Origin: Paludibaculum fermentans
Lineage (GTDB): Bacteria; Acidobacteriota; Terriglobia; Bryobacterales; Bryobacteraceae
Length of the DNA stretch: 64,000 nucleotides
Direction: 5' to 3'
Assembly: GCF_015277775.1 (NCBI RefSeq)
Contig: NZ_CP063849.1
Span: forward strand, 4,402,001-4,466,000
The notes under the pieces were generated by a model. The model ran no database searches and was not told the DNA's origin. It saw only the letters and a program-made list of their open reading frames with translations. This document shows, in pieces, positions 55,079 through 58,601 of this stretch. Numbering within the stretch: position 1 is the first letter of the stretch; each line of letters opens with the position of its first letter. The position numbers and the translations under genes were made by a program.

Positions 55079-56497
55079 ATGAGGTGTGGCACTGTGACAC
55101 AGCTTTCCAAAGTGTCCCGGACCTGGACAAAACCGGTTCTGGCAGCTTTATTTGCCCTGACGGTGATGCCCGTCACGGGTCTCGCGCAGGATGTCGACTA
55201 TCAGGTCTATACGGAGCCGCCGCGGCTGCTGCTGAACCAGCGGCGGTTACGCCTGCTGAAGCGGGAAAGAGAACGCGAGTCTTTGCGCTGGCAGCAGTTC
55301 GACAGCCTGATGCGTGGCAAGGCCCGGATGTCGGAACCGGGTTTCGCCCTGGCGCTGTGGGGGACGATCACGGCCAAGATCGAACCGTGCCGTGACGCCG
55401 GCGAATGGAGTTTGAAGTCGGCGAACGTGAACGACCCGCGCGACCTGCGGCAGATGGCGCTGGTGTATGACTGGTGCCAAACCTCGATGGACGAGTCGCG
55501 TACGTCGATGGTAGCCCGGAAGCTGACCGCTGTTCTCAAGAATCGGCCCACCGAAACGCTCGCCATCCGTTCCCATCTGTTCGCCGCGCTGGCCGTCGCG
55601 GACCTCGAGTCCCAGCCCGCCCAGGATTTCATCAAGTACGTCGCCGAGACGTGGTGGAAGAGCAAGATCATGCCTCAACTCCTGGCCGGGCAGAATCCCT
55701 TCCCCAAGCGGGAGGATCTCTACGCCATGCTGGAGATCCTGCACAGCATTCGCGACAATACGCGCACCGATATCCGGGAAGGCGCCGGCAAGTGGTTTGA
55801 GGAGCTGGCTCCGATGCAGTTGCTCTCCTACTATCCGCAGCCGTGGCCGGCCGCCGAGAACGAGTACCGGATTCCGGCCTATATCGGGAAGGGCGATCCC
55901 AGCATGCAGGAGGCTGCCTATTCGCGGGCGGCGGAGATGGCGCTGGTGGCCTATGACGGCAATGCGCAGCCGCACCAATTTCTGCAGGGCTGGATTCTGC
56001 AGGACCGGTTTCTGATGCGCGGCGACTTCGGCATCACGTATGAGCTGCTGTGGGCCAACCCTTACCAACCGGGCCTCAGCTTCACGTACATGCCCGACCT
56101 GTTCCATGCGCGCGGCCAGTTGCTGACGCGCAGCAGTTGGGACGAAGACGCCACCTGGTTTGGGTTCTGGAACGGGCAGGCGCAGGTTTTCACCAAGGGG
56201 CAGAGGGCGACGGTGCGCCTGGATGCCAAGCCGGGTCCGGTCACGCTGGGTCCGGTCAAGGTCTTCTTTGCGTCGGCCGGCCTACGCCTGGAGAGCGGCT
56301 GGCTGCCTCCGCCGGAAGAGGGGACGAAGCCGGTGGGGCAGGTGGCGTTCCTGGTGGGGCTGGAGCCGTCAGCCCGCTATGACGTGGAGATCGACGGGGA
56401 AGAGATGTTCGAGGCGCAGGCGGATTCGGGCGGGATTTTGGAGTTGAAGTTTGCTCCGGATCATAAGGCGGGCGTGCGGGTGCACAAGGCGCTGTAG
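55079..56497 (+). CDS. Hypothetical exported protein
   Basis: The 472-residue product has a signal peptide (LAALFALTVMPVTGLAQ), an N-terminal helical part rich in Arg and Glu (LRLLKRERERESLRWQ) and repeated Trp/Tyr-rich helices (ENEYRIPAYIGK, RFLMRGDFGITYELLW), then a beta-rich C-terminal part (GQRATVRLDAKPGPVTLG). The helical toroid plus beta layout is reminiscent of heparinase/alginate-lyase-type enzymes, but no catalytic motif can be assigned. Start ATG 55079 lies before the signal sequence; upstream in-frame codons give no signal peptide. Confidence 0.6.
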   Translation: MRCGTVTQLSKVSRTWTKPVLAALFALTVMPVTGLAQDVDYQVYTEPPRLLLNQRRLRLLKRERERESLRWQQFDSLMRGKARMSEPGFALALWGTITAKIEPCRDAGEWSLKSANVNDPRDLRQMALVYDWCQTSMDESRTSMVARKLTAVLKNRPTETLAIRSHLFAALAVADLESQPAQDFIKYVAETWWKSKIMPQLLAGQNPFPKREDLYAMLEILHSIRDNTRTDIREGAGKWFEELAPMQLLSYYPQPWPAAENEYRIPAYIGKGDPSMQEAAYSRAAEMALVAYDGNAQPHQFLQGWILQDRFLMRGDFGITYELLWANPYQPGLSFTYMPDLFHARGQLLTRSSWDEDATWFGFWNGQAQVFTKGQRATVRLDAKPGPVTLGPVKVFFASAGLRLESGWLPPPEEGTKPVGQVAFLVGLEPSARYDVEIDGEEMFEAQADSGGILELKFAPDHKAGVRVHKAL

Positions 56498-56554
56498 GGG
56501 GCTCCATGCGGGCTGAGTTCCGCGGTTGTGCCGTGTGGACGCTGGCCCACGAAT

Positions 56555-56598
56555 GGGAGGGCGGACGCCCTCGTCCGCGGCCGGTCCCCTGACCGGCC
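56555..56598 (+). repeat. REP-like element, two consecutive hairpins, upstream of the RAYT gene
   Basis: GGGAGG foot, then hairpin GCGGACG-CCCT-CGTCCGC (56561-56578) and hairpin GGCCGGTC-CCCT-GACCGGCC (56579-56598), both with perfect stems and the same CCCT loop. Confidence 0.8.
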
Positions 56599-56644
56599 AT
56601 TTTCGAGAGTTCCCGCATCGGTCTCGCACTATTCCGGTGTGACG

Positions 56645-57208
56645 ATGTACACCCGGCGATTGCCCCATGTCCGGGAGACCGCTCTTCCCGTGTTTCTCAC
56701 GTGGGCTGTCCAGGACAGTCTGCCACCTGGCCGGTGCTTCCCTGAGGTATCGGTTTCTTCGGGTCGCGCCTTCGCCGTGATGGATCGGTTGCTGGATGAA
56801 GCTCGGGGTGGCTCGTTTCCTCTGAGGCGACCGGCTGTCGCCGACATGGTCGTCGAGGCCATTCGGTATAACGCAGGGACTCTCGGGCAGTATGAATTGC
56901 ATGCCTACGTGGTGATGCCGAACGATGTACACCTGCTTGTCACGCCGACGGTGGCCATACCGAAGTTGGCGAAATCGCTCAAGGGGATCACGGCGAAACG
57001 GGCCAACCAGATGCTGGGCTCTACAGGGCGGCCGTTCTGGCAGGAGGAGTATTATGACCACACTGTGCGCGCGGTTGGCGGGTTTGAGCGGATTCGTGCG
57101 TATATTGAGGGGAATCCAGTTCGAGCTGGACTGGCTAGGGAGATCGAAGAGTATCGTTGGTCCAGTGCTGGTAAGGCGAATGCAGGGTTCGCTGGCCCAG
57201 GGGAATAG
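56645..57208 (+). CDS. REP-associated tyrosine transposase (RAYT), HUH motif altered
   Basis: IS200/IS605-related Y1 transposase domain of the RAYT type, which acts on REP hairpins. The 187-residue product has the family marks YVVMPNDVHLLV (residues 88-99), GRPFWQEEYYDH with the catalytic Tyr at 136 or 137, and YIEGNPVRAGL with RWSSAGKA near the C-terminus. The usual HxH metal motif is D94-V-H96, one His replaced by Asp. ATG 56645 has a GTG six bases before it as an alternative. REP-like hairpins lie on both sides in opposite orientation. Confidence 0.85.
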   Translation: MYTRRLPHVRETALPVFLTWAVQDSLPPGRCFPEVSVSSGRAFAVMDRLLDEARGGSFPLRRPAVADMVVEAIRYNAGTLGQYELHAYVVMPNDVHLLVTPTVAIPKLAKSLKGITAKRANQMLGSTGRPFWQEEYYDHTVRAVGGFERIRAYIEGNPVRAGLAREIEEYRWSSAGKANAGFAGPGE

Positions 57209-57210
57209 CG

Positions 57211-57364
57211 GCGGGGTTCCCGGGTGGGGAAGAGGCGACCAGGGGGTCGCCTGCCGACCAGGGGGGCCGCCCTCCTGGTTGATTGCGGCGTGGTTCCTTG
57301 GGTGGGGAAGAGGCGACCGGGGGGTCGCCTGCCGACCAGGGGGTCCGCCCTCCTGGTTGATGCG
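57211..57364 (-). repeat. Two tandem 77-base units, each a two-hairpin REP-like element, inverted relative to the upstream one
   Basis: Units begin at 57211 and 57288 and are nearly identical. On the minus strand each reads GGAGG, a hairpin of GCGG-type stem with CCCT loop, then a second hairpin with arms AGGCGACC/GGTCGCCT (57233-57252) and CCCT loop. The GGAG foot and loop match the element at 56555-56598. Confidence 0.8.
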
Positions 57365-57431
57365 AACTTTGAGTGGCGGAGGGGCGGCCGGAATGGCGGG
57401 TGCGGCCGGCGGACCGGTGCGCGAGAACTTG

Positions 57432-58601
57432 TCAGCGTATCGACGGCAGGAAACTGGTTCCGGTTTTGATGCTCGTTCCAAAGTTCTCCGCTACCGTTTG
57501 GCCGATGTCCGCCAAGGAGCCTCGGGTGCCCAGGTTTGCTCCCGATTGGGCTTTCGGACCAAAGGCAATGAGCGGCACGTATTCGCGGCTGTGATCCGTT
57601 GACGGCGTCGTTGGGTCGCAGCCGTGATCCGCGGTCAGCACCACCAGATCCTCCGGGCCTAACGCTGCTTCGAGTTGAGGCACCCAGGCATCGACTGCTT
57701 CCAAGGCCTTGGAATAGCCTTCCGGGTCGTTGCGGTGTCCGAAGAGCATGTCGAAGTCGACCAGGTTTACGAAGACCAGGCCGCTCTCGATCGACGCCAA
57801 CGCCTCCAGGGTCTTCGCCATGCCGTCCGCATTCGTCTTCGTCTTGAGCGACCTCGTCACACCGCGCCCCAGGAAGATGTCCGCAATCTTGCCGACACTC
57901 ACTACCGGCACGCCGTGCGCGGATAGCTGGTCCAGCAACATACCTTCGGGCGGAGGCACCGCATAGTCGTGGCGGTTGGTTGTTCGGGTGAAGTTTGGAG
58001 AGACGCCCTCGAACGGCCTCGCAATGACGCGCCCCACTTCGTGCGGGCCGGTCAGTAATGCCCGCGCTATTTCGCAGATCCGGTACTGCTCGGGGATCGG
58101 GATGACGCCCTCGTGCGCCGCGATCTGGAAGACGCTGTCGGCCGAGGTGTAGACGATGGGCTTGCCCGTGGCCAGATGCTCGTCGCCGAGTTGCTTGATG
58201 ATCTCGGTGCCGGAAGCGGCGTAATTGCCCAGCGTGCCGCGGCCGATGCGGCGTTCGAATTCGGCCATCAGATCGGCCGGAAAGCCGTTGGGATAGAGCG
58301 GAAACGGCTTCGACAGATGAATGCCGACCATCTCCCAATGCCCGGTGGTGGTGTCCTTGCCGGGGGAGGCCAGCGTACAGCGTCCGAAGGAACCTCGTGG
58401 CGCTGAGGCGGCCGTGAGATGGTCGAACGGGCGGATGTTGGCCAGGCCCAACGAGCAGAGATTGGGCAGGTGGAGCGGCCTCAGGCTGGCGCAGTGGCCC
58501 AGCGTGTCGCCGGCCCTGTCGTCGCCGAAGGCCTGCCAGTCTGGCATGGCTCCGATGCCAACGCTATCCAGAACAATCCACGCGATTCGGCGAAAGGCCA
58601 T
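57432..58601 (-). CDS. deoB: Phosphopentomutase
   Basis: Interconverts ribose-1-phosphate and ribose-5-phosphate (and deoxy forms) in nucleoside salvage. The 389-residue product is of alkaline-phosphatase-superfamily type with metal residues: WIVLDSVGIGAMPD at the start, PGKDTTTGHWEM with the phosphorylated Thr near 90, and TADHGCDPTTPSTDHSRE near 335. GGAG lies eight bases before the ATG at 58601; the frame further upstream overlaps the next gene and is not used. No deoA/deoC adjacent. Confidence 0.95.
   Translation of the reverse strand: MAFRRIAWIVLDSVGIGAMPDWQAFGDDRAGDTLGHCASLRPLHLPNLCSLGLANIRPFDHLTAASAPRGSFGRCTLASPGKDTTTGHWEMVGIHLSKPFPLYPNGFPADLMAEFERRIGRGTLGNYAASGTEIIKQLGDEHLATGKPIVYTSADSVFQIAAHEGVIPIPEQYRICEIARALLTGPHEVGRVIARPFEGVSPNFTRTTNRHDYAVPPPEGMLLDQLSAHGVPVVSVGKIADIFLGRGVTRSLKTKTNADGMAKTLEALASIESGLVFVNLVDFDMLFGHRNDPEGYSKALEAVDAWVPQLEAALGPEDLVVLTADHGCDPTTPSTDHSREYVPLIAFGPKAQSGANLGTRGSLADIGQTVAENFGTSIKTGTSFLPSIR

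Follow-up and report, generated by a model that had tools for sequence, protein, structure and literature searches.

A probably impaired REPtron-type unit and a dispersed family of two-hairpin REP-like elements in Paludibaculum fermentans

The window analysed here, a stretch of 64,000 nucleotides from Paludibaculum fermentans (NZ_CP063849.1, positions 4,402,001 to 4,466,000), contains a real REPtron-type unit, in which a RAYT-like gene lies between inverted, two-hairpin REP-like elements. We consider it fairly probable that this unit is an impaired REPtron that sits beside an older REP population. A previous sequence-only reading had described the layout as REPtron-like and intact. The layout is borne out, with a RAYT-family protein between inverted copies of a dispersed REP-like element and the same arrangement in other genera, whereas 'intact' has to be given up: in the window protein the first HUH His is replaced by Asp, a change seen in none of the 71 fetched homologues of at least 40% identity, all of which keep His, and the flanking elements carry the foot GGAG, versus GT[AG]G in each of the 26 complete elements read next to relatives' RAYTs.

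The whole unit is housed in a segment (56498–57447) between two neighbouring genes, one of which we take to be phosphopentomutase-like. The upstream element lies on the forward strand at 56556–56599, as judged from sequence, fold and a covariance model match at 56556–56605 (73.9 bits), and consists of GGAGG, a first hairpin GCGGACG-CCCT-CGTCCGC, a linker G and a second hairpin GCCGGTC-CCCT-GACCGGC. It is followed on the same strand by the gene for a RAYT-like Y1 HUH transposase of 187 amino acids (P0001, 56645–57208); comparison with the DNA of orthologues, which start at the position of a GTG at 56639 (e.g. ATG ACG TTC TAC in L050), suggests this GTG, two codons ahead of the ATG (56639–56644), as the candidate true start. 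Two further elements with the foot GGAG lie downstream on the reverse strand, and thus inverted with respect to the upstream copy, at 57232–57275 (match 57226–57275, 60.5 bits) and 57310–57353 (match 57304–57353, 64.7 bits); they are 97% identical across a 62-nt repeat, with a spacing of 78 bp. Coordinates and strands agree with the sequence-only reading of one upstream element and two tandem units on the opposite strand. An exact 12-nt repeat, ACGATGTACACC, occurs at 56642–56653 and 56922–56933 and so spans the start of the RAYT gene as well as the altered HUH codon; considered as a trace of template switching, it is probably a chance match.

Each 44-nt element consists of the foot (GGAG + G) and two hairpins, both with 7 bp in the stem and 4 nt in the loop, with a single base as linker between them. 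The GGAG foot, GCGG stem and CCCT loop noticed beforehand are an accurate description, and the string GGAGGGCGG is common to all three copies. The loop is CCCT throughout, save in hairpin 2 of the outer downstream copy (CCCC), and among the seven pairs of hairpin 1 the outer downstream copy has one mismatch and the inner downstream copy two. The covariance model gives the three elements, which were themselves part of its training set, E-values of 1.4e-20 to 2.7e-16, and folding as single-stranded DNA gives z-scores of -3.65, -3.68 and -2.94. In both downstream copies the minimum-energy fold has an alternative first hairpin in which the foot is paired. The short motif GGAGGGCGG is found 4 times in the window versus 1.98 expected, and 13 of 100 shuffles reach 4; because the motif is not significant on its own, the short-motif count was dropped as evidence.

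The hairpins are far from confined to the window, which disposes of the concern that they occur only here. Independently of the covariance model, the pattern GGAGGGCGGN{0,30}GTCCGC matches the genome (9.53 Mb in 2 contigs, estimated completeness 100%) 39 times versus once in the reversed control, with 4 of the 39 matches unlike the element by eye, and the 23-nt hairpin-1 string of the upstream element recurs in the genome. The covariance model, built from 23 copies of the window genome and used with matches taken at E<=1, finds at least 93 elements, the last two of them weak (E 0.27 and 0.55); this number is a lower bound because 150 of 16701 first-look candidates were scored. Base pairing is maintained. 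In the seed set 98.4% of pair cells hold standard pairs and 8 of the 14 pairs are changed on both sides, including all 7 of hairpin 2, while hairpin 1 is nearly invariant; in a wider set of 50 matches (48 distinct) from relatives' RAYT flanks and other genomes, in an alignment fitted to the model, paired cells make up 98.7%, and both sides are changed in 11 of 14 pairs. In neither set was this level of both-side changes reached by any of 500 shuffles.

Most copies are extragenic: by a simple codon-usage gene finder, 88 of the at least 93 are intergenic, 4 lie in genes and 1 partially so, compared with 75% (3212 of 4281) of random 50-mers falling in predicted genes. Among the 83 non-genic copies with predicted genes on both sides, 66 are downstream of a same-strand gene, a count in which clustered copies are not independent. 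Grouped at gaps below 700 bp, the 93 copies form 58 clusters, namely 39 singles, 10 twos, 6 threes and one each of 4, 5 and 7. All 18 multi-copy clusters away from the RAYT are head-to-tail on one strand, and the RAYT locus is the only one of the 19 multi-copy clusters found that has both strands. One array site holds five copies in the window genome (G000), one in its closer sister G145 and none in G100, another genome of the genus, so the copy number there changed after the three lineages split. Two arrays that are far apart, G000:C1:709408-710426 and 4056661-4057146, have near-identical flanking spacers, and the array segment therefore seems to have been copied between them. A long gene, whose product we take to resemble a topoisomerase III fused to a RecQ-type helicase, carries element copies within its reading frame: three in G000 (8659882, 8659963 and 8660044, in L220 = G000:C1:8658300-8661700) and six in G100 (L272), in both genomes 79–81 bp apart and adding repeats of about 27 residues.

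The foot separates the window elements from those beside related RAYTs. All three window elements have GGAG, and the feet of the at least 93 genomic copies are 48 GGAG, 38 GGAC and 7 others. Among 45 copies of the window genome inspected by eye, the GGAC foot is mostly accompanied by a C-G pair that closes hairpin 1, which suggests two subfamilies. In relatives, the GT[AG]G foot stands 5' of the hairpin in all 26 complete elements counted by hand beside RAYTs at 14 loci (L049–L061 and L198 minus L058, plus L086), a count that omits a contig-end copy (L059), a degenerate copy about 400 bp off (L198) and two duplicate fetches (L168). A match to hairpin 2 only, at L056, is without a GT[AG]G-type foot. 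Weaker matches at more distant RAYT loci, leaving out L067 (1089), L197 and L211, have five feet GTGG, two GGGG-like (L074) and one gapped (L067). GGAG-footed elements are also dispersed in G145 and G100, and the GGAG foot has thus spread. In the substrates described in PMC8266576, a Marinomonas RAYT selects strongly only the last two foot positions (one substrate), a second-position change leaves cleavage barely detected in Stenotrophomonas maltophilia, and no second-position change is tolerated in E. coli. By analogy, the change to GGAG may be tolerated by the enzyme, the last two bases being kept.

The window protein has the domain and fold of Y1 transposases, matching PF01797 at 40.9 bits (cut-off 23), and its AlphaFold model (mean pLDDT 82.6) has as its best PDB match 4er8, a RAYT bound to a REP hairpin (E 9.2e-8). 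Its score for the equivalog NF047646 (REP_Tyr_transpos) is 71.1 bits, under the cut-off of 80; as five of seven relatives are also under 80 and two pass (80.5 and 95.2), this cut-off does not separate the RAYT clade. The catalytic Tyr is in place in the Y---NP motif (Tyr153-I-E-G-N157-P158), with the codon of this expected nucleophile at 57101–57103. The positions W132, Q133, D138, H139 and R142 correspond, by equal spacing rather than by alignment to the E. coli protein, to the guide-recognition residues W94, Q95, E100, H101 and R104 of the E. coli enzyme (PMC6006769).

The exception is the HUH motif, which is N-D-V-H in the window protein and mostly N-H-[VI]-H in close relatives. The GAT codon at 56924–56926 places Asp94 at the first His, which is kept in 102 of 103 distinct fetched homologues spanning the residue, the sole non-His being a Gln in a broken copy within the window genome; the column is invariant in 43 stop-free rows of relatives, of which two are identical. 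The window protein thus descends from RAYTs yet lacks their defining two-His HUH feature. Apart from residue 94 it does not appear decayed: there are no stops, Tyr153, Trp132, Gln133, Asp138, His139, Arg142 and Asn157 are all present, and it departs from three of the columns that are at least 90% conserved, versus 0–5 departures across the 43 relatives' rows. Aspartate is able to bind metal, and residual activity is therefore possible. Taken together, however, Asp94 and the GGAG feet make a working unit in the window unlikely, and the window copy is probably catalytically dead or crippled.

The pairing of RAYT and element extends beyond the window genome. The 14 best database loci, at 42–62% identity, belong to records named Acidobacteria, Acidobacteriia, Terriglobia or similar, two of them Bryobacteraceae. 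At 11 of the 14 highest-ranked homologous loci outside the window genome (L049–L061 and L198) the RAYT is flanked by inverted elements, the upstream one on its own strand and the downstream one on the other, with two of the 11 resting on partial upstream matches (L056, hairpin 2 only; L059, cut by a contig end); of the remaining three, L198 has elements on both sides but all on a single strand, L060 has the element upstream only, and none was found at L058. Homologous RAYTs in other genera thus show the same inverted arrangement. A tree of 44 RAYT rows places 11 of the 12 rows with elements on both sides, including that of the window, in a group of 13 together with two one-sided rows (support 87/69), and the twelfth (G017) is near this group. 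The hand-assigned flanking labels need three changes on the tree and so do not establish a single origin. The window gene groups with rows of other genera (97/86), excluding the G100 gene of its own genus. Across genomes, a RAYT homologue is present in 42 of 59 that bear elements versus 21 of 91 others (Fisher p 5.6e-9, relatedness ignored). No RAYT match at E<=1e-20 was found in 17 of the 59, among them G145, which has at least 40 elements.

RAYTs of this clade are not found as multiple near-identical copies of the IS200/IS605 kind in the window genome, where the nearest full-length paralogue has 53% identity. A second full-length RAYT-like gene (2829458–2829991) has the motif NHVH and occupies the same site as a gene of G100, to which it is 83% identical. 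The model found no elements beside it, and it was set aside as a present mobiliser for lack of element matches alongside, though it may act in trans. Next to this gene, G000 has about 0.7 kb that is absent from G100 (L194 vs L196). Recent RAYT copying within genomes was likewise rejected: a pair at 100% proved to be one gene fetched twice (L052, L202), and the closest real same-genome pairs in the 33 rows compared, a subset of the homologue matches, are at 90% (G020, adjacent) and 79% (G049), with all others below 66%.

Comparison with the sister genomes bears on the history of such units. Homology with G145 ends at 56495 and resumes at 57448, and at this site G145 and G100 share about 7.2–7.4 kb of other genes, with no copy of the window RAYT found there in either. 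By eye, the genes include a kinase, a regulator and glycosyltransferase-like and aminotransferase-like genes. A search run without a positive control gave no match to these genes elsewhere in G000, and because of this a deletion probably accompanied or followed the arrival of the window unit. Among the other relatives compared, G151 has about 95 bp between the aligned stretches, G047, G150 and G152 have about 1.1–1.4 kb with other reading frames, the contig ends in G127 and G153 has no match to the upstream gene.

The empty sites in relatives that the sequence-only reading had proposed to look for were accordingly obtained in part: none of the relatives compared has a clean one for the window unit, for which reason the unit of G100 was used for the presence/absence test, and this unit is absent from G000 and G145. 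It comprises about 847 bp with a RAYT, two elements and a third that overlaps the RAYT 3' end. Between homologous genes on both sides, its site holds 7 bp in G000 and a 67-bp spacer in G145. The model finds no relic elements at these two unit-less sites; the G145 spacer contains the GGAGGGCGG string. The difference fits either a single insertion in G100 or a single clean loss that preceded the split of G000 and G145; in the latter case the unit would be an old insertion that had disappeared in the ancestor shared by these two, rather than a new one in G100.

Were Asp94 a metal ligand and the protein co-adapted to GGAG, the unit could still be spreading the family in the window genome, which would account for the conserved remainder of the protein, for GGAG in all three flanking elements and in 48 of the at least 93 genomic copies, and for the array with 5, 1 and 0 copies in G000, G145 and G100, given that some other RAYTs withstand a change at the second foot position at least in part (PMC8266576). 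We regard this as unlikely, in that His and never Asp stands at the position in the 71 homologues of at least 40% identity, and GGAG elements also occur in G145 and G100, where the window site yielded no copy of the window RAYT. Head-to-tail array growth, moreover, requires only slippage or unequal recombination. It is very unlikely, in our estimation, that a working Asp-hydrophobic-His RAYT has come to prefer GGAG to GT[AG]G as its guide, enzyme and repeats having changed together; if true, this would be a natural re-coding of a RAYT–REP recognition pair.

The codon of Asp94 was read from one assembly, and a single C-to-G difference would account for it in an otherwise intact active site, leaving an ordinary active REPtron apart from the foot. 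The assembly, however, has only 2 contigs at 100% estimated completeness, and the foot change is independent of that base and seen in three copies, so that a sequencing or assembly error seems quite improbable. Least credible to us is that the hairpins serve as terminators or 3'-UTR elements and have nothing to do with the RAYT, which would merely sit among them: the prevalence of copies behind same-strand genes (66 of 83) and the 17 of 59 element-bearing genomes with no RAYT match at E<=1e-20 are what such elements would give, whereas inverted flanking at 11 of the 14 closest loci and in the G100 unit, and RAYT-proximal elements in relatives that bear the GT[AG]G foot known from REPs (PMC2817692), argue for a specific association.

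The impaired-REPtron explanation that we prefer would run as follows. The unit is a REP–RAYT–REP unit whose RAYT belongs to a clade that extends across one bacterial family. The ancestral enzyme would have acted on single-stranded DNA, recognising two-hairpin elements with a GT[AG]G foot and mobilising them and, probably, now and then the entire unit. The window copy would then have lost this function, with Asp in place of the first HUH His and GGAG as the flanking feet. The elements of the genome would be a REP population dispersed by older, related RAYTs, now located mainly downstream of genes, and some of them would have multiplied in place as head-to-tail arrays.

Several known systems resemble this one in part. 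REPtrons as described by Nunvar 2010 (PMC2817692) share a gene of the Y1 HUH family that stands between inverted, GC-rich palindromes with further copies in the genome, as well as the foot GT(A/G)G of the window's relatives; they differ in that here two consecutive hairpins share one foot, the window foot is GGAG with Asp at the first HUH His, and clusters elsewhere in the genome are head-to-tail rather than inverted. TnpAY1 subclasses 2.7 and 2.4 (Quentin 2018, PMC6006769) have in common WQ, Y---NP, the N-H-V-H of relatives and GT[AG]G-footed REPs, a likeness in motifs and no subclass assignment. The TnpAY1 table of that survey gives no HUH signature with Asp at the first His, and in its passages we found no two-hairpin single-foot unit described; its class 3, with members in Acidobacteria and elsewhere, carries a CnGA foot. 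REPINs and BIMEs (Bertels and Rainey 2011, PMC3116915) are likewise dispersed, extragenic, hairpin-forming and RAYT-linked, but REPINs are presented there as inverted REP doublets, whereas here both hairpins belong to one unit, 18 of 18 other multi-copy clusters found are same-strand and inverted doublets are not the repeated unit. TIRYTs and TIRtrons (Di Nocera 2013, PMC3733652) also involve Acidobacteria tyrosine transposases with inverted repeats, some in dispersed families, but have long TIRs, some sharing GGGGWSAS, where the window family has two-hairpin elements, with GT[AG]G in relatives. In the open-licence literature, as represented by titles, abstract openings and passages, we found no two-hairpin single-foot element, no head-to-tail arrays of it and no Asp94 variant.

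Parts of the picture have precedents. Inverted REPs around RAYTs have been described (PMC2817692), and REPs are reported to lie for the most part behind genes and occasionally within repair genes (PMC3733652). We consider the interest of the finding moderate because REPs lacking a cognate RAYT are already known, as are RAYTs in new locations and suspected cases of horizontal transfer, mainly from Pseudomonas (PMC3686654). RAYTs have also been described as single-copy, vertically inherited, domesticated transposases (PMC8049555). In contrast with that picture, a RAYT clade with its matched element is found here at non-shared sites in two genomes of the same genus, one of them a presence/absence site, and the clade is spread over several genera. 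In G145, an element population persists in a genome with no detected RAYT. The copy numbers of 0, 1 and 5 at one array site and the paired change of His and foot would thus offer a natural experiment on the upkeep of REPs after failure of their transposase.
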